Of a stretch of 64,000 nucleotides of DNA, positions 30,241-44,624 are shown piece by piece (positions within the stretch are counted from its first letter, which is position 1; the number at the start of each line of letters is the position of its first letter). Made by a program: the position numbers and the translations under genes. The DNA comes from Monosiga brevicollis MX1 (taxonomy: Eukaryota; Opisthokonta; Choanoflagellata; Craspedida; Salpingoecidae): NCBI RefSeq assembly GCF_000002865.3, contig NW_001865042.1, positions 1,222,207 through 1,286,206 on the forward strand, written 5' to 3'. The notes below the pieces were generated by a model. It ran no database searches and was not told where the DNA came from. It saw only the letters and a list, made by a program, of their open reading frames with translations.

Positions 30241-31314
30241 TTATGTCTTGCGACAAGCGTAGTCGACGCGATAGACATGCTGGATACGTTGAATAGTGGC
30301 ATTGGTGAGATCGCTCGGTCGGATCGTAAAGTGGGCTACGGTATTGGTATCGACCGTGCCTCCATTGTGCCGTGAGCGGGTCGAATCCTGATTTTGTTGC
30401 AGGTATGTTGAGTTGGCGCGATCGCGAGAGTGCGTCAGACCAGGCCACGGGCAAGTGGTGTTGGACGCCTGGGCAAAGCGAGTCCATTGATGCCAAAGCG
30501 CTTGGAGTACGGCCTCATCCTGAATGTCAGTGATGTAGGTCAAGAATGGCACCGGGGCAGGCGCAATGTTAGGAGAGCGTGTGGGGAACATGAAGGCATT
30601 CATGGGAGCCAGATGCGAGTTCCAGCGCGTCAGCAGCCGCGCCGTCGGTCGAGATTGTAGAATGTGCTGCACCGTCTCGTCTTTGGTGTGATTGGCCGCA
30701 AACGCTATCATCGAGGCCGGCATGTGCCCTAAACATGAAAAAACCAGGATGACGTCGGTACATAAGTTTATTTATGGGTGGCCGGCGGGATGGAGGAGAG
30801 GGTCTGGCAAAAGGAGGCACCCAGAGTGCGGGACAAAGTCTTGAACGTGCTCACCGCGACGCAACACCTCGGCCAGTCCGGAAAGAAAGCGGCCCACAGC
30901 ACTGGGGCGCTCAAGAGCCACGAGCTCACTTGTGGGGAGGCCGTTCAGGGCGCGCAGGCGGCGGAAGATTCGGTATTCACCCCCGGGTTGGCAGGCACAG
31001 GCTGTCCTGACAAGCTGGTTGACGGAGGTCCCGCCGGCCTTGAAGACGTGAACATGACCAAAGTTCCGCTCAGCTGCGTGGGGGAAAATACAAGCAACAA
31101 TCTCATGGTTGTTGGCCGGAAGCTGAGGTAGGCTGTCCGGAGGGTAAAGTTTGCCTGAGGTGTACTGCTGATGGAGGCACTCCTGCCAAGCTGTCAAGCG
31201 GTGTCGGGCGCGCTGCAGCGCCGGCTCAGTGCCAGTCGCCCACAAGCAGTTAATCTGCACGCTGACGACCAGCAGCAAGAGCGCTGATGCATGTGACCGT
31301 GGTTGTCGCTGCAT
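30241..31314 (-). CDS. Sulfotransferase, Golgi type II membrane protein
   Basis: Two exons. The ATG at 31314 starts a short basic tail and a signal anchor (ALLLLVVSVQINCLWA), typical of Golgi sulfotransferases. The 5'-phosphosulfate-binding motif is FGHVHVFKAGGTSVNQLVR. The 3'-phosphate motif is RPSAVGRFLSGLAEVLRRG, where RxxxRFLSG is the usual form. A GTGAGC donor after this joins in phase to an exon starting HMPASMIAFAANHTKD near 30730. The C-terminal exon ends at 30241 (IQHVYRVDYACRKT). Enzymes of this type move sulfate from PAPS to glycans or proteins in the Golgi; the acceptor cannot be read from the sequence. It is divergent from STING, about 360 bases away. Confidence 0.82.
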
Positions 31315-31671
31315 CGTGCAGCCCACTGCTCAGTCCCACCAATGCATTGGGCTGGACAGCTCTGGTCATGGACGAGCCTCGTCCAGCGAGCCAGAGGAAT
31401 GAATGCGGGAGGGAGAGAGAGAGAGAGAGAGGGAGAGAGAGCAATCATCGCCTCGAGTCATCCCTGCATGCATGCATATATCATCCCATCAATTCGAATA
31501 GTTCACTGACTTCGTCAACTTCGTCAACCGCATAGAACGAACGGAACGAGAAACGATGCGTGCACATCCAAATGTACACATGTAATCCGAATGTACATCG
31601 GATGTGCATGTACATCCGGATGTAACTGCCACATCAAAATCTTGTTTGTTCATTACATTTTTTTGTACGCC
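31315..31671. promoter_or_regulatory. Divergent promoter region between sulfotransferase and STING
   Basis: It contains a GA microsatellite (about 31409-31440), a CATG-rich stretch (ATGCATGCATGCATAT-like, about 31466-31480) and, nearest STING, a cluster of ACATC/GATGT words at 31561-31624. This should hold the STING promoter and 5'UTR. Confidence 0.5.
31611..31624. promoter_or_regulatory. Perfect 14-bp palindrome upstream of STING
   Basis: TACATCCGGATGTA is its own reverse complement and ends 47 bases before the ATG at 31672. Related half-sites (ACATCGGATGT, ACATCC) occur just upstream from 31564 on. A dimeric regulator site is inferred; no factor is known to me. Confidence 0.4.
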
Positions 31672-32688
31672 ATGATGGTTAATCTCTCTGATCTTTCACA
31701 TCTCTCTCAGCGCGGCTGGGCCCAGGTCTTTGTGACGCTGGCTGCCGCTGCCATTTCAATCTTCTATTTCTCCTTTTCTCCCTTTGAAGTTGCGGCGGGA
31801 ATTTGTGCTAGCATTGCTGCTGCGGGCGCCGTCCCGCTGCTCTTTGACGCGGTGCACTACTTGATTGCCTTCTGCATCTCAGCGCCGGATGCGCGCCCTC
31901 CGTTGCGGACAGTTTGGACAAAAACGCGGCTCCAGCGCTGGAGTGGGTTGTCGATCCTCACCTTCATCGTCTTGGCGTGCGGCTTGTACTTTGCGAGCCC
32001 CAGCCCTATGAGTGCGAGCAATCTTTTTGCAGTTTTCGCGCTATCCCTTTGCAATTCGGTCTTTTCCGCCATGGTCGCGCCGCGATGTGGGCGCCTGGAG
32101 GTGGTTGATTTGGCCACCCATCCGAATACTGTGCTTTTTAGGGACTTCGGCGCAGCGTCAGCGATGTCATATTGGCATGGCTACCTTCAGCATATTGCCG
32201 GCGACCGTGCCGCTCTCGAAGAACGGTTTCGGGATTCAGATGTGGGCGGCATGCGAGTTCCCCGCAAGCTTTACATTCTGGTTCCGCAGGACTGCGAGGT
32301 CAATGCCTCAGACAACAAGTATGAGGGCCTCAAAGCCACCGAGCACTACATCTCGCCCAAACCCATCACCATAGGCGGGGTGGTTGATCGTGAAATGGGT
32401 AAGCACACCCTCTACACCCCCTCGGAGAGTGCCGAGACTGCGAGTGTGGCGTTTGCCATGGAGCTGGCGAGCCCTCTCAACACGATGAAGAATGCGCTGA
32501 AGGACGCGGCGGAAGGCTTATTGGAGCTGCAGAGTGAGGCCTTTTACCTCACCCTCAGAGGCATTCTGAAGCAGGAGGGCGTTCTTGATCAGGGCAATGA
32601 TGAAGGTATGATCAAACTAGTGTGGGGCAAGAACCGCTCTGAGGTGCTGAAGAAAATGAGAGCGGAGGACCAGTATGCGATGCCATAA
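31672..32688 (+). CDS. STING: STING cyclic-dinucleotide receptor
   Basis: This is a 338-residue, intronless STING homologue. In animals STING is an ER membrane dimer that binds cyclic dinucleotides made by cGAS. The sequence has four membrane segments (about residues 17-36, 39-69, 93-108 and 117-136) and then a cytosolic ligand-binding domain (about 155-338). By-eye alignment to human STING: SYWHGYL (166-172) matches SYYIGYL, so the ligand-stacking Tyr167 is Tyr171; KLYILVPQDC (199-208) matches RLYILLPLDC; MELASPLNTM (263-272) matches LEYATPLQTL, with Thr263 as Ser267; an Arg at 240 may match Arg238. The protein ends soon after this domain, so the C-terminal tail that recruits TBK1 in vertebrates is absent. 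The start is the ATGATG at 31672/31675; an in-frame ATG at 31591 would add 27 residues with no STING-like content. It is convergent with the cGAS-like gene. Confidence 0.95.
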   Translation: MMVNLSDLSHLSQRGWAQVFVTLAAAAISIFYFSFSPFEVAAGICASIAAAGAVPLLFDAVHYLIAFCISAPDARPPLRTVWTKTRLQRWSGLSILTFIVLACGLYFASPSPMSASNLFAVFALSLCNSVFSAMVAPRCGRLEVVDLATHPNTVLFRDFGAASAMSYWHGYLQHIAGDRAALEERFRDSDVGGMRVPRKLYILVPQDCEVNASDNKYEGLKATEHYISPKPITIGGVVDREMGKHTLYTPSESAETASVAFAMELASPLNTMKNALKDAAEGLLELQSEAFYLTLRGILKQEGVLDQGNDEGMIKLVWGKNRSEVLKKMRAEDQYAMP

Positions 32689-32956
32689 ATGCCATTTGGC
32701 ACCTGTTTTGTTGTACGGGGTTTGGTAGGGGAGGAGGCAAGCAGGGATGTACCCGCGAAAGGAAGACTCAAAAAACAGGAAAGGTAGGAAAAGCAAACAG
32801 GGGAAGTCAGCTACATAGCCCACTGGGAAAGAAATTGATTCGTCAGTCGAGATTCTCCAACATTTTGCATCAAAATAAATTGAAGTACATGAACATGACA
32901 TCGTACATGTTGGGAAACTAAACATTCAACGTGTTCCTTGATCTGAAGGAGCATCT
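32689..32956. other. 268-base spacer between STING and cGAS-like gene
   Basis: This is the short tail-to-tail spacer that must contain both 3' ends. It is A/T-rich, with an AATAAA-like word in the plus strand near 32874-32879 (AATAAA), a possible STING polyadenylation signal. Confidence 0.5.
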
Positions 32957-33910
32957 TTAACTGAAGGGGAGGCTCAGAACAACACGCTGTACGGCTTCGA
33001 GCCCGGCCTTTGCAATATTGAAGTCGGACTGTTTAAAATTGCAAAGAAGGTTGATGTTTGGGGCAAAGAAGTGGGGCAGGCTCCTAGAGCCCACCTTTTT
33101 GATCATGAAATCAAGAAGTTCCTTCGTCTTCTCTCGTACCTCTGCCCCGCCAGCGAGGCCGCCTTCTGGGCCAAAGTTGCTGCCCTTCAACTCAAAGAAC
33201 GCCAGCCAGGCCATCTTAAGGTGGTAGCTCTTCAGCTTCGTGCTGCACAGCTTGCGCTTCTCAAAGGCTATGTACTTGACGATGCGGAGGCAAAGTTTAC
33301 TCGAAGGATTGCGTTGGCCTCTGATATACTCCTTCTCCAACATCGATAAAGAGAGGCGCCAGCCCCATCTCCCGTCGTTGCGCGTCTTGGGAATGGCATA
33401 GATCTTCTTCTGCCAGTCCGGGATGATTGAGAGGGGCCCTGGCTCGCACGCACCGTCAACAACAACAGGAACCGCAGGTACAAGGTCTGCAGTCGTGGTG
33501 CCAGGCACGCCACCCACATTGAGGCGCAGGAGCGAGCCCGGACCATTGGCTCGGATAGCGTGCCCTTTGCGCCCCAGGTTCCTGTTGAAATTGTTGCGGT
33601 ACGCCTCAGCACGTTCGCTGACGTCAGCGAGAAAGGCGTCAATAGGGGGGGGCCAATGCACGACGAAGCCCTTGCGTCGGAGCATGTCGCGGTCCCAGTC
33701 TTTCGTCGCCGCCATGACGTCAAACTCGTTAGCGCTCTTGACCTTGAGCCCTTCGTAGGCGCTGCCGGTGTAGAGCATCTCGTATTCGCCACGGAAAAGG
33801 GATGAAACGGCTCTGTCAAAGGCCTCGCGCGCCTCCCTTTTCCCATCCCTGGGGACCTGGACCTCACGCAACAGGTCCGTGTAGGTTTGCGGGCTTGATG
33901 CTGCCATCAT
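32957..33910 (-). CDS. cGAS: cGAS-like nucleotidyltransferase (Mab-21/CD-NTase fold)
   Basis: This is a 317-residue, intronless enzyme. Animal cGAS and cGLR enzymes make cyclic dinucleotides after sensing nucleic acid. The catalytic helix and acids read LYTGSAYEGLKV (GS at 49-50) and NEFDVM (Glu62, Asp64). The third acid is Asp142 in TTADLVPAV. The Mab-21 C-lobe follows: WGWRLSLSMLEKEYI (human WRLSFSHIEKEIL), LCLRIVKYI, LKSYHLKMAWLAFFE (human SSYHVKTAFFHV) and LPHFFAPNINLL (human NYFIPEFNLF). There is no Cys/His insertion between the IEKE helix and the Lys/Tyr helix, so the zinc-ribbon thumb that binds DNA in vertebrate cGAS is missing, and there is no long basic N-terminus. The start is a double ATG (33910/33907); upstream the frame is open but lacks ATG. 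The trigger and product are unknown. Confidence 0.92.
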   Translation of the reverse strand: MMAASSPQTYTDLLREVQVPRDGKREAREAFDRAVSSLFRGEYEMLYTGSAYEGLKVKSANEFDVMAATKDWDRDMLRRKGFVVHWPPPIDAFLADVSERAEAYRNNFNRNLGRKGHAIRANGPGSLLRLNVGGVPGTTTADLVPAVPVVVDGACEPGPLSIIPDWQKKIYAIPKTRNDGRWGWRLSLSMLEKEYIRGQRNPSSKLCLRIVKYIAFEKRKLCSTKLKSYHLKMAWLAFFELKGSNFGPEGGLAGGAEVREKTKELLDFMIKKVGSRSLPHFFAPNINLLCNFKQSDFNIAKAGLEAVQRVVLSLPFS

Positions 33911-35370
33911 GACAGTGGCGTGGCGGAAAAAAAAAAAAAACAGGACTGGATCGTTGAAGAACACGTAAACCGTGTGCGGAGCATCGGTTTTTAGCGTTCA
34001 AGAAGTCCCCCTGCATCGTGTGCTTGTTCATTTCCAAAAAGTCCCCTAGAAAAAGTCCCCAGAAACATGGTTGCTGGTTTGCAAACCGGACAATGCTGAC
34101 AATTTTGCGCGCCGGGAGGCCAGAAAATTGGCGCGCCGGCCTCGATCTGGGCAATGGCAGCGCCAGATCCGGGCGATAAACAGGGATGGGCGAGCTGAGC
34201 ATGCATGAATAGGTAACTGACATACCCTGCATGGCTCCAGTCTAAAAAAAACCAGTGTTTCTATGGCACATCGAGCACCTATGCACTCCTCTGCACCTTG
34301 CTTTGTTTTCGGCTGGCAAATGGCAGCCAGATCTGCCATAACTGCCGATGGCAGCTCACATCAACCCTAAATTTTGCTGTATCCATATTGTGCGTACTAT
34401 ATGGCTTTAGGAAAACCTTGGTTTGGCCAAATCGGCCCAGTATAACCGCCTGGGCACTCCTGTGCGTGAGCTGCACCTCTGTTTACCCTTGCGCTGACGG
34501 GGACCCGAGCAGTTTGCAATGAAAATGGCGGCGCAGCTGGCTGGTTTTAGGCTCATTCAAAAGGCAGCGCATGTGAAATGTATATGGCTCAGTATTGTGG
34601 CATAAAGCCGTCATCTTGATACCTTTTGGGCCGCCAACTTTTGACTGAAAAGTGTTTTGGACCTCTTAAAAAATGGCAGCCACAACACGGCTTATACAAA
34701 CGGCAGCCAAACTAAACATGGCTCATTCGATGCGCCATGCTGTAAAGAGCTAGTACAAGCTGCAGATTTTGAATACTGCGCTCTCAACACCTGTTACATC
34801 TGCCATACTGGGACCATAGCATTTTTTCCTCATTGACCTTTACAAATGGCAGCGCCACACATACTTCTCGGCACTTGACGGCCTTGAAATTGATGTCATT
34901 GGAAACGGCAGTCCTGAATTGTTCTTTAAACTTGGTTTTATTCCCTCCTGCTTCACTATGTTCCTGGTTAGCACTGCCTGTTTTGCTGGCTACAAAACAG
35001 ATTTCCCGACCTGTTCCGGCTTGATCTGAGCCCGGCTGTGGTCCGAATGGCATTTTTCCGACCACAAACCAAGTCCTCAAGACCTCTTTTGCTTCTTTTC
35101 AATCCCAACCAACTAGTATGTTGCCTTGCACCCTTGCGGCTCACGTTCCAAAGGCACCTGGTGCCTGGTCCCTCGTTCCGCACATCTCTCAAACCACCAC
35201 CAATACGCACCAACACAAACACCCCACATTCTTGTGCGGTTGTACCTGCCGCCGAGTTGTTGCTGGTCGTCAACACAAGATTTTCGTTTGTTTTTCGTTT
35301 TTTTTTTTAACATGGCATATACCGTCTCACTTGCGTTGATGGTGCCTGCTTGACACCTCTAGCCAGCACC
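33911..35370. other. 1.46-kb region upstream of the cGAS-like gene; no gene seen
   Basis: It lies between divergent genes. An A run (about 33929-33942) sits just upstream of the cGAS-like ATG. Three AAGTCCCC words occur at 34012-34061. GCGCGCC words at about 34107-34140 form a near-direct repeat, and GATCTGG/CCAGATC (34144-34169) form an inverted repeat with a 12-base loop. From about 34150 to 34920 short GGCAGC words, often as AATGGCAGC, recur about nine times. It is less GC-rich than the flanking genes and has no domain-bearing frame. Confidence 0.5.
34144..34169. repeat. Inverted repeat with 7-bp arms
   Basis: GATCTGG at 34144-34150 pairs with CCAGATC at 34163-34169 around a 12-base loop that contains one of the GGCAGC words. 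It could be a chance hairpin. Confidence 0.4.
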
Positions 35371-35985
35371 ATGACTGTCACTGACCAGATCAAAGAGGCT
35401 ATCACCAAGCTCTGCCCCCCCAACTCTCGCAAGGGTGTCAGCCGTGCTGCCATCAAGCAGTACCTAGGCGATGGCGTCCCTGCTTACCGCATCAACCAGA
35501 GCCTGAAGCACCTTGTCGAGACCGAGCGCGTGGTGCAGACCCGTGACTCCTTCCGCATCCCCGCCGTACGTTGATGGCGCTGCAGTTTTTTTGCCCGAAT
35601 CCCCACATGAGATGGGGACACCGTCTCGACTTGGCAACGAAAATGTCCATCACCCGCCTGACATGAATATTTTGCCTCTGACTCTGCTGGTGCCCCTTTT
35701 GAGTAGAAGGTCAAGGCTGAGGAGAAGGCCGCTGCCAAGAAGAAGGAGACTGCTGCCAAGAAGGCCGCTACCAAGAAGACCACCACTGCTAAGAAGACCA
35801 CCAAGAAGGCGGCCACCACCAAGAAGCCCACCACCACCAAGAAGGCCACGACCACCAAGAAGGCCACGACCACCAAGAAGGCCTCCACCAAGAAACCCAC
35901 GACCACCAAGAAGACCGCCAGCACCAAGAAGACCACCACCAAGAAGCCCTCCGCGAAGAAGACCAAGGCCGCGGCGAGCGCTTAA
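35371..35985 (+). CDS. H1: Linker histone H1
   Basis: Two exons, 35371-35565 and 35707-35985, give 157 residues. Exon 1 is the winged-helix globular domain (TDQIKEAITKLCPPNSRKGV, AAIKQYLGDG, YRINQSLKHLVETERVVQ, SFRIPA). Exon 2 is a Lys/Ala/Thr-rich tail with many TTTKKA/TTKK motifs and no acidic stretch after its first few residues, as in H1 tails that bind linker DNA. The intron (GTACGT donor, TAG acceptor) falls exactly at the globular/tail border in phase 0. The ATG follows CCAGCACC. Short length is usual for protist H1. Confidence 0.93.
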
Positions 35986-39700: not shown

Positions 39701-42700
39701 TAACGGATCCGCGTCAGCTTGCTCTGTTGCCGATGCCGATGACGAGGTGCGGTGAGCCGTCACCTCGTCATGCAATCGCAAGCAGGCTTCTCGAACAGAG
39801 CGATGAGAACAGCGCAAAGAGGCCATCTGGGCGTGTGCAGTTGTTTGGGCGTGGGCCAAATCGGCAAGGGCCGAGGCTGCAATCTTAACACTTGTCTTGC
39901 TGACCGGATTGGCCAAAGCGGTGCTTCTGGTCGCGTGTAAGCCAGTCAGATAAGCAACGAATTCGTCTTGATCGATCTGACCGTCTTGATCGGGGTCCAT
40001 CTTCTGGAAAAGCTCTTGCCATCCACTTTGATCCACCCCAAATGCGGCACGCAGCTCCTGGTGCTCCTTCAACATCTTTTTGACCTAGGCCAAGTCCAGA
40101 ATCGAAACAGGGTGAGTAGAAAGCAGACGTAATTTGACACGCAAAGGCAAGAGCCAAGCTAGCGCAAACTTGTAAAACCTTGAAATTTCGACTCTGCGAT
40201 CAATCTCACCTCATTGTGACTGAGTTGCCCATCAGCATTGACATCAGCAGCGTTGAACAGCGACCGCGCTTGCTCCACCAACTAAATCGCATTTGCGGTC
40301 TCAGGTGAGCACACGGATGATAATTGTTACACGTTGCACGACAATTGGGCTTACCGAGGAAATATCAAGAGACGCATCGTTCTCATAAGCTTGCGAGGTT
40401 GTCACAGCCGAGTCAAGGTTTTGAGAATCAAGTCGTACAAGTAGCTGATCTCGCTCATTTTCAAGGGCTGCGACACGTGCCTCCCAGGCACTGACTGCAC
40501 GATCATGGTCCCGGGCATTGGTCCTCGCAGCCTTGAGCTCCGTTGCAAACGCTTGTGCCTTATGTTTAAGCTTGTCAAACTTGGCTTGCAAAACGCTGAG
40601 TTCAGAATTTGTTGACTTGGGCGATTCTCCAGACTGCGTCGACGTCTCAAGAACGCGAAACTGCTCAGCTTCCTTCTGTAATTGCGCGATTTGGGCCCGC
40701 GCCTCTTCCAGCTCGGGCTGAGACGAAGCGCCTGATCCTCCTTGGCTTCGTTCTGCAGCTGCTTGATCTGCTCCTGAGCCTCCTTGGCCTCGCTCTGCAG
40801 CTGCTCGATCTGGGCCCGCGCCTCTTCCAGCTCGGCCTGAAAAGAAGCGCCTTCCTCCTTGGCCTCGTTCTGCAGCTGTTCGAGCCTCTCGTTCTCCTGC
40901 GCCTGCCCTTCGCCTCGTTCTGCAGCTGCTCGATCTGCTCCTGAGCCTCCTTGGCCTCGCTCTGCAGCTGCTCGATCTGGGCCCGCGCCTCTTCCAGCTC
41001 GGCCTGAGACGAAGCGCCTTCCTCCTTCGCCTCGTTCTGCAGCTGTTTGATCTGCTCCTGAGCCTCCTTGGCCTCGCTCTGCAGCTGCTCGATCTGCTCC
41101 TGAGCCTCCTTGGCCTCGCTCTGCAGCTGCTCGATCTGGGCCCGCGCCTCTTCCAGCTCGGCCTGAAAAGAAGCTCCTTCCTCCTTCGCCTCGTTCTGCA
41201 GCTGTTCGATCTGGGCCCGCGCCCCCTTCGCCTCGTTCTGCAGCTGCTCGATCTGCTCCTGAGCCCCCTTCGCCTCGTTCTGCAGCTGCTCGATCTGCTC
41301 CTGAGCCTCCTTGGCCTCGCTCTGCAGCTGCTCGATCTGGGCCCGCGCCTCTTCCAGCTCGGCCTGAGACGAAGCGCCTTCCTCCTTCGCCTCGTTCTGC
41401 AGCTGTTTGATCTGCTCCTGAGCCCCCTTCGCCTCGTTCTGCAGCTGCTCGATCTGCTCCTGAGCCTCCTTGGCCTCGCTCTGCAGCTGCTCGATCTGGG
41501 CCCGCGCCTCTTCCAGCTCGGCCTGAGACGAAGCGCCTTCCTCCTTCGCCTCGTTCTGCAGCTGTTTGATCTGCTCCTGAGCCTCCTTGGCCTCGCTCTG
41601 CAGCTGCTCGATCTGCTCCTGAGCCTCCTTGGCCTCGCTCTGCAGCTGCTCGATCTGGGCCCGCGCCTCTTCCAGCTCGGCCTGAAAAGAAGCTCCTTCC
41701 TCCTTCGCCTCGTTCTGCAGCTGTTCGATCTGGGCCCGCGCCCCCTTCGCCTCGTTCTGCAGCTGCTCGATCTGCTCCTGAGCCCCCTTCGCCTCGTTCT
41801 GCAGCTGCTCGATCTGCTCCTGAGCCTCCTTGGCCTCGCTCTGCAGCTGCTCGATCTGGGCCCGCGCCTCTTCCAGCTCGGCCTGAGACGAAGCGCCTTC
41901 CTCCTTCGCCTCGTTCTGCAGCTGTTTGATCTGCTCCTGAGCCCCCTTCGCCTCGTTCTGCAGCTGCTCGATCTGCTCCTGAGCCTCCTTGGCCTCGCTC
42001 TGCAGCTGCTCGATCTGGGCCCGCGCCTCTTCCAGCTCGGCCTGAGACGAAGCGCCTTCCTCCTTGGCTTCGTTCTGCAGCTGTTCGATCTGCTCCTTCG
42101 CCTCCTTCGCCTCGTTCTGCAGCTGCTCGATCTGCTCCTGAGCCTCCTTGGCCTCGCTCTGCAGCTGCTCGATCTGGGCCCGCACCTCTTCCAGCTCGGC
42201 CTGAGAAGAAGCGCCTTCCTCCTTTGCAGCTGTTCGATCTGGGCCCGCGCCGCTTCCAGCTCGGCCTGAGAAGAAGCGCCTTCCTCCTTCGCCTCGCTCT
42301 GCAGCTGCTCGATCTGCTCCTGAGCCCCCTTGGCCTCGCTCTGCAGCTGCTCGATCTGCTCCTGAGCCTCCTTGGCCTCGCTCTGCAGCTGCTCGATCTG
42401 GGCCCGCGCCTCTTCCAGCTCGGCCTGAGACGAAGCCCCTTCCTCCTTCGCCTCGTTCTGCAGCTGCTCGATCTGCTCCTGAGCCTCCTTGGCCTCGTTC
42501 TGCAGCTGTTTGATCTGCTCCTGAGCCTCCTTGGCCTCGCTCTGCAGCTGCTCGATCTGCTCCTGAGCCTCCTTGGCCTCGCTCTGCAGCTGTTCGATCT
42601 GGGCCCGCGCCTCTTCCAGCTCGGCCTGAGAAGAAGCGCCTTCCTCCTTCGCCTCGTTCTGCAGCTGTTCAATCTGCTCCTGGGCGTTGCTTAGATCGGC

Positions 42701-44624
42701 GCGTAGCTCGGCACTCTGGCCTTCAGCCTCTTTCTGTGCTTCGCGAGCGACTGCCAGTTCTTCTTCCTTGATTGCCAATGCATGAGCAACTTCGCCATCT
42801 ATGCAGCACACCAAACAAAACACAAGTGACTGACACAGCGTCTCTACCTAAGGGGCCTCGGGTGTGTGGGGCGTACCGTCCTGTTGAACCTCTTCAAGCT
42901 GCGACCGCAAGCTGATGATCGTAATGTCCATTTCTTTGAGGCGGGTGCAGAGATCATCCTCTCGCGCGCTAGCGGTCGACAAAACTGTGGGTTAATATTT
43001 CAAATGCCATGATGCTCGAGCTTATTCGATGCTGTACATACTTGCTGGCTTCCAGTTGAGCTTTCAAACTGTCATGGGTGGCTTCTTGTGTCTGTGCATC
43101 GCGCAGACTCTGATTCTCATCTCGAAACTCGTGCAGCTCAGCCATAAGTTCTTCAACACGCGCTTCCAAGGCTTTCGCATTGCTCTCAGTCACTGCGCGT
43201 TCTTCGGCTGATTCTGCATGCAGGGAATGCAAACTTGATTGGAGCTCGCGAATCGTAAGGTCACGGCCCTCCAATTCCGCTTCGAGTTGTTTAACCTGAG
43301 CTCGTAATTGGTCAAGTTCCTGGCTCAGATCATCGTTTTTGGCGTTTTTGCCCCCCTTGCCCTTCTTCAACTCTTGGTTCTCATCCTTGTACTTGCGAAC
43401 GAGCTGCTTCAGTTTGCCATTGGTTGTTTGACCCTCTTGCAACGCCATCTCCTTTTGTCCAAGGTCATCTTGTAGTTCAGCCAGCTGCTGCATACATGTT
43501 TCAAGCTGCCGTTCGCGCTCCTGTAGGACTTCGCTCTGATCCTGGGCCGGCTGGCGTGCGGCGACAAAGGCGAGTTCATGTCAGCAAACAAATGTTCGAG
43601 ACTGCTGAAATAGCAAACTAGACAGTTTGCTTGAGCAGTTTGTTGTACCTGCGTTTGTAAGCCGAGGGCCTCTACTTGGGATCGCAAAACTTGCATCATC
43701 TCGTCCTTGTCAGCTAGTTGATTTTCGTAGGTTTGTGTCAAGGAGCGGATTGTCTCTTGATCGATGCGGCGAGCTGCGCGCCGGGACATGGCAGCATACG
43801 ATGAGAAAAAAAAAAAAACGGGTTCAACAACAGGCCATCCAAGCTGGCGCGAGCTGCTCAGCAGTTCCGACCTTCTTTGAGCTCTTCCAATTCGCGCTTG
43901 ATGGTCTGCGTGCAAGGACACGTGGCGCATTTAAGCAAATTTGTCACGGTTGGCAGCTAGATGGTTGTGGAACAGAACAATTTATTTTTACCTTGATGCT
44001 GTCATTTTGGCCGGTATCAGTCTGCTGAACCTTTTTTTTGAGGCTGGCAAACATGCCACTCTTAGCCTGAGTGCAAGTGACACGTGCGTCAGCGCCAATT
44101 TTGTAAGCAGGTCATTTTCACAGGTGAGTGGTGCGCGCTGGATCGCGTCAAAGTGGATGGCCAAGAATGGTCCGGCCCAGGAGCAAAGCGAAGAAAGCAA
44201 AAGCGTGGGGTGGCACAAACGTACGGTCTGTTGTTTTTTTTTGGTATGAGTGCGACGTAGTTTTTCAAAGGCCGTTTTAAACTCGCGGTAATCAATGTTA
44301 CCATTGCCATCGTCATCGAGCTCCTTGAGAACGAGTTTGAGCTGTGGTGCGGGCAGAGGGTGGCCCAGGCGCTCCAAAGCTGCAGCAAAGGATTTGCCAT
44401 TGATGGTTCCATTGCCGTCATCCAGTTCGCGAAAAAGATCAAGCACGCGCAGCTGGTCATTTTTCATAACCTACAGGGGCCAAGTGAGCAGCGATTGATG
44501 GGACGCACATCGGGCTGGGGGTCGAGCAACGATCAAGGCAGCTGGCGAGAGAGTATGCACAAACCCCATTCATGGACTCGATCCACTCGCTCACGACCTC
44601 ATCGCTCCCTGGAGCGTCGGCCAT
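36701..44624 (-). CDS. Giant EF-hand and coiled-coil protein, golgin-like
   Basis: The ATG at 44624 begins MADAPGSDEVVSEWIESMNG. The next exon is an EF-hand pair (FRELDDGNGTINGKSF and KELDDDGNGNIDYREF). Several small exons lead into coiled coil and the repeat array in the exon at about 42800-40357. A second EF-hand pair follows: one hand on a small exon near 40211-40287 (ADVNADGQLSHNE) and one opening the next large exon (KMDPDQDGQIDQDEF, about 40090). About 1000 residues of heptad coiled coil follow. Two short terminal exons give ETAELVADLLKLDEEEREIV and LTARRVLGRFM, stop at 36701. The LRDAMLKHLSG...LLKLDEEE end resembles the GRIP/GRAB end of golgins, hence a Golgi tether is my best guess. 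Total about 2200 residues. I inferred one gene from in-phase junctions and EF-hand continuity; a split near 40.3 kb is possible. Confidence 0.72.
40735..42670 (-). repeat. Coding tandem repeat array of the giant gene, with 519-bp higher-order period
   Basis: Basic units encode QIEQLQSEAKEAQE (14 residues) and QLQNEAKEEGASSQAELEEA-type blocks. A longer unit of about 519 bases repeats at least twice (matching landmark at 41161 and 41680). All three minus-strand frames are free of stops over most of the array. The coiled-coil frame changes at about 42224 (10 bases fewer than the consensus), about 40905 (8 more) and about 40735 (2 more); these sum to zero, so the frame returns. Confidence 0.9.

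Follow-up and report, generated by a model that had tools for sequence, protein, structure and literature searches.

A convergent STING and cGAS-like receptor gene pair in Monosiga brevicollis and the question of how its linkage arose

The choanoflagellate Monosiga brevicollis, a protist whose STING gene has been knocked out in earlier work, carries the genes for STING and a cGAS-like receptor (cGLR) side by side, and this locus is one of the few natural settings in which ideas on the beginnings of animal cGAS-STING immunity can be tested. What the genes are, that they are linked and what the enzyme makes has already been published; at issue is whether the linkage was inherited from a bacterial operon or assembled later. 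To this debate we add the convergent layout of the genes on opposite strands, their single open frames and their host-like codon use.

Very probably, the two neighboring convergent genes, each a single open frame, encode a cGLR-STING immune pathway of M. brevicollis. In this pathway, the cGLR joins GTP and ATP into 2'3'-cGAMP, the reaction shown in vitro by Li et al. (PMC12424679), and 2'3'-cGAMP triggers a STING-dependent transcriptional and autophagic response, with STING residing in the perinuclear endoplasmic reticulum (ER). Both the STING-dependent transcriptional and autophagic response of M. brevicollis to 2'3'-cGAMP and the perinuclear ER location of its STING were described by Woznica et al. 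in 2021 (PMC8592570).

A tail-to-tail gene pair

The window (the whole stretch of 64,000 nucleotides analyzed here) corresponds to positions 1,222,207 to 1,286,206 of contig C53 in an assembly of 57 contigs and 39.5 Mb. Within it, the STING gene (MbSTING; 31672-32688, plus strand) is a frame of 338 amino acids (aa), and the cGLR gene (Mb-cGLR1, MONBRDRAFT_36418; 32957-33910, minus strand) is a frame of 317 aa, each of them uninterrupted. The stop codons face each other, tail to tail, across a measured gap of 268 bp (32689-32956), exactly as the preliminary description had given the coordinates, strands and spacing. The adjacency that it claimed also holds in the assembly, where the pair lies approximately 1.25 Mb inside a 1.6-Mb contig. 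The length of this contig is 1,613,056 bases in the protein search and 1,606,087 bases in the genome, which perhaps reflects two assembly versions, and the pair lies on one contig in both. In 200 base shuffles of positions 31001-34500, the longest stop-free frame did not exceed 228 aa (mean, 146 aa); thus, STING and cGLR are not chance frames. Between positions 32500 and 33000, the only AATAAA or ATTAAA site on either strand is an AATAAA at 32874 (plus strand; approximately 80 bp away from the stop codon of the cGLR gene), with neither motif on the minus strand, and the 3' ends of the two transcripts may therefore be close to each other or overlap.

The pair is real, was correctly read in the preliminary description, and is already known. 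That description had reported the linkage in a choanoflagellate with its publication status unchecked; a literature search by gene names found a single paper, by Li et al. (bioRxiv, September 2025; PMC12424679), which describes the pair in M. brevicollis and places MONBRDRAFT_36418, renamed Mb-cGLR1, "immediately downstream of MbSTING." In the main text of the earlier STING study (PMC8592570), none of the terms adjacent, syntenic, neighboring or operon appears. The pair in the window is almost certainly the MbSTING/Mb-cGLR1 locus of Li et al., with the same families, order, opposite strands, immediate neighborhood and numbering of the catalytic residues (E62, D64 and D142). The published account differs in two respects: its legend puts the genes 178 bp apart, compared with 268 bp from stop to stop here (perhaps a matter of gene-model ends), and its text words the arrangement as "antisense head-to-tail," whereas the DNA is tail to tail. 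The same paper terms the layout operon-like, and describes the genes as "independently regulated" and their expression levels as different. The convergent layout is a point for the origin debate because the term operon-like goes beyond what the DNA holds.

Domain architecture and genomic distribution of STING and cGLR

STING consists of a four-helix membrane part followed by a ligand-binding domain, and both parts exceeded the cut-offs of their Pfam models: STING_TM (PF23417; residues 43-152, positions 31798-32127, plus strand; 77.9 bits, cut-off 28.1, E 9.6e-22) and the cyclic-dinucleotide-binding STING_LBD (PF15009; residues 158-325, positions 32143-32646, plus strand; 127.7 bits, cut-off 27, E 4.3e-37). 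Four hydrophobic segments were found (residues 17-35, 40-58, 91-109 and 118-136). Twelve solved structures matched the protein at E <= 0.01, the best being 9q1f, an Endolysin-STING fusion (E 7.6e-08) that we take to be the T4 lysozyme-SmSTING fusion solved by Li et al.; it shares the stem GAASA-S-W-GYL with M. brevicollis STING. No other Pfam family scored better, and the earlier identification as a STING with four membrane segments is borne out.

The ligand contacts, a set taken from human STING, comprise a stem Ser and Tyr, a lid Arg, and a Glu, Thr/Ser and Thr of a later helix. In structure alignments, S166, Y171, E264, S267 (Thr there) and T271 match STING chain 9wh7, and R240 falls on an Arg in two of the three alignments shown (9q1f and 6wt6), that of 9wh7 being shifted by one at this place; the Tyr two places past the lid Arg corresponds to Met242. 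With the set chosen from human STING, the ligand contacts are conserved. Direct binding of 2'3'-cGAMP has been shown for S. macrocollata STING. The M. brevicollis protein ends 13 aa past the STING_LBD match, and a vertebrate-type C-terminal tail is absent, which is no bar to STING membership since the tail is described as having evolved in vertebrates (PMC8592570).

The cGLR matches the Mab-21_C helical lobe (PF20266; residues 205-298, positions 33017-33298, minus strand; 30.1 bits, cut-off 24.1, E 5.6e-07), and PF03281, the nucleotidyltransferase (NTase) part of Mab-21, found nothing on it at E <= 1; PF03281 was split in a later Pfam release. A phmmer search against solved structures returned 40 matches at E <= 0.1 (35 cGAS, one SRY-cGAS fusion, two cGAS-like receptor 1 and two "Uncharacterized protein"), with weak similarity (best E 1.7e-05) made up of short fragments that cover the GS...NEFD motif and the C-terminal lobe. 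In mouse cGAS, a Cys-rich insert forms the zinc thumb. In the structure-match alignments, the M. brevicollis protein has no counterpart of this insert of the cGAS chains, which is why we file it as a cGLR and not as a vertebrate cGAS; the absence of the insert agrees with published work in which DNA elicited no response. A single-sequence structure prediction gave a mean pLDDT of 33.5 and was unusable. The catalytic motif G[S/G], [E/D]h[E/D] X50-90 [E/D] is present as G49-S50, E62, D64 and D142; the codons of E62-F63-D64 occupy positions 33719-33727 and that of the third metal ligand, D142, positions 33485-33487 (both minus strand; residue numbering as in the Fig. 1 legend of PMC12424679). Li et al. 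give E62, D64 and D142 as the catalytic residues of Mb-cGLR1, which in their account yields 2'3'-cGAMP in vitro with no need for DNA or RNA. The proposed identity as a cGAS/Mab-21 nucleotidyltransferase is supported, with Mab-21_C over its cut-off, the catalytic motif present, cGAS chains weakly matched and no other Pfam family scoring better.

Both genes were the only ones of their kind recovered when the genome was searched in six frames with STING and Mab-21 profiles. STING_LBD had one match at E <= 0.1, in the STING gene of the pair; STING_TM had one match over its cut-off, also there, and a second on contig C54 that was below the cut-off (E 0.02). Mab-21_C had one match at E <= 1, in the paired cGLR, and the cGLR protein searched against the genome found only itself. 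PF03281 matched nothing in the genome and left the paired cGLR and the controls likewise unmatched, so that further distant NTases may exist elsewhere in the genome. PF20300, the model for bacterial-type STING, also had no match in the genome, nor in the controls, PF15009 being the matching model. For STING and cGLR, PADLOC models gave no match at E <= 1 and NCBIfam gave nothing near a cut-off, and Rfam gave nothing in the 64,000-nucleotide window at gathering scores. Wide homologue searches at E <= 0.001 each returned only the window's own protein, out of 4102 candidates in the case of STING and 2680 in that of cGLR. In viral contigs, 18 pattern stretches for STING and 1 for cGLR were found, of which none was confirmed, by a single-protein scan that reaches close relatives only.

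Origin of the linkage

Li et al. report a second linked pair, SmSTING and Sm-cGLR1, in the choanoflagellate Salpingoeca macrocollata (PMC12424679), with 29% identity to the M. brevicollis pair in the ligand domains and 32% in the cGLRs. Because linkage is reported in two such diverged species, it is most likely old and would have been inherited within part of the choanoflagellates. Vertebrate cGAS and STING share with the M. brevicollis pair the fold families, the product, and the four-helix membrane part joined to a ligand domain, but their genes are unlinked, and the zinc thumb of cGAS and the C-terminal tail of STING are found in neither M. brevicollis protein. Bacterial CBASS operons with a STING effector likewise place a CD-NTase beside a STING-domain receptor. 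However, the genes of the S. faecium system form an operon with 4 bp between them (legend of PMC12424679), and in the bacterial system of PMC9402430, CdnE makes c-di-GMP, whereas M. brevicollis has opposite strands, a Mab-21-type enzyme and 2'3'-cGAMP. The closely packed, one-strand arrangement of CD-NTase and effector that defines a CBASS operon is not found at this locus. A bacterial operon was rejected on the ground of strand, and a co-transcribed operon is not supported either, the genes lying on opposite strands; since they converge, what they have is adjacency only.

The preliminary description had offered joint transfer, a co-regulated module or chance as readings of the linkage. These three readings are still in play, except that simple chance is opposed by the second species (PMC12424679). 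Adjacency by pure chance, with neither shared history nor selection, draws on the fact that eukaryotic genes shuffle; the genome has about 9,200 genes, from which the chance that one given pair is adjacent is approximately 2 in 10,000 (approximately 0.5 in 10,000 for a convergent pair). This small figure and the repeat reported in S. macrocollata make such an origin very improbable. Li et al. favor the view that the pair is what remains of a single bacterial CBASS operon, comprising CD-NTase and STING, which was acquired intact before animals and choanoflagellates arose or close to that time. Adjacency in two choanoflagellates whose sequences differ strongly, together with the bacteria-like features that the paper describes for SmSTING, argues for this origin, and the unbroken frames agree with it, the intron argument being only suggestive. 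Against it stand the opposite strands and the 268-bp gap in place of a same-strand operon, the trees of Culbertson and Levin (PMC10732462), which nest cGLRs in bacterial clade D, and their statements that the histories of CD-NTases and STING are "substantially different" and that the membrane-STING layout is convergent. The use of CdnE and c-di-GMP by the bacterial STING system of PMC9402430 and the lack of PADLOC matches to either protein at E <= 1 point the same way. The published histories of cGLRs and bacterial STING cast doubt on the transfer of a complete CBASS operon, which we regard as possible but rather less than an even prospect.

Codon use bears on this origin only as far as a recent transfer is concerned. 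ORFs with a minimum length of 250 aa were drawn from 22 stretches totaling 267,057 bases; after the removal of overlapping and low-complexity ORFs, 29 were kept, and setting aside the 3 under test left a reference set of 26. The GC3 of STING was 0.66 (rank 18 of 26) and that of cGLR was 0.70 (rank 23 of 26), and their codon likelihoods ranked 13 and 20 of 26, respectively. The codon use of both genes is ordinary for the genome and counts against recent transfer alone, in a test that is weak because the reference set may include exons or chance frames.

The remaining reading, to which we come close to giving an even chance, is that the two genes had separate sources, became neighbors later, and have since stayed together in one choanoflagellate lineage through selection or inertia. 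The phylogenetic arguments of PMC10732462 (cGLRs in clade D and a differing STING history), the convergent orientation, and the report that some choanoflagellates have STING and no detectable cGLR (PMC12424679) speak for a later joining; the additional event that it requires and the report of linkage in two species that have diverged weigh against it. With low certainty, we rate later assembly slightly above operon inheritance. A more specific version of later assembly, which we consider unlikely as a whole, holds that the locus is not a CBASS fossil: a cGLR derived from clade D would have been brought next to a STING with a different origin in the choanoflagellate lineage, selection would have kept the two tail to tail, and the proximity or overlap of their 3' ends might let the transcription of one gene damp that of the other.

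A second CD-NTase and the surroundings of the pair

The genome contains one SMODS match (C48:1055355-1055831), which lies inside an intact 332-aa frame (C48:1055319-1056314) encoding an eSMODS-type CD-NTase that is unlinked to STING; the eSMODS superfamily was described in PMC10732462. This protein matches PADLOC cyclase models (best E 5.1e-44) and bacterial CD-NTase structures, and scores 116.9 bits with NCBIfam CBASS_cyclase_b, below the cut-off of 200. At E <= 1e-8, it has two relatives among 3318 candidates (P0003 and P0004). Where these read D-V-D or D-I-D and then F-D-V-V-P, the M. brevicollis protein reads N-V-E and I-N-V-V-P, so that its metal-binding triad is N/E/N as opposed to D/D/D. 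These substitutions suggest that the eSMODS-type enzyme is probably catalytically inactive, which would make the STING-linked cGLR the better candidate source of the cell's own cyclic dinucleotide. In the main text of PMC10732462, none of the terms active site, inactive or pseudoenzyme appears. The GC3 of the eSMODS-type gene (0.765) is higher than that of all 26 reference ORFs. At C10:57630-57797, a partial match to OAS1_C (26.3 bits, cut-off 19.9, E 1.1e-4) perhaps represents a third CD-NTase family in the genome.

Eight chosen frames of the window were scanned against Pfam. Half of them had no match over the cut-off, including two just left of STING; these two minus-strand frames (30241-31326) are perhaps exons of one gene divergent from STING, with starts approximately 350 bp apart. 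The other four matched a GH47 glycosidase exon, a pyridine nucleotide-disulphide oxidoreductase exon, an EF-hand coiled-coil protein and a RING protein, and there was no immune partner among them. Farther to the right, a long, internally repetitive, coiled-coil-like stretch on the minus strand (40301-42823) is open in several frames. By eye, a candidate linker histone H1 gene with a lysine-rich tail and one intron (35371-35985, plus strand) lies head to head with the cGLR gene.
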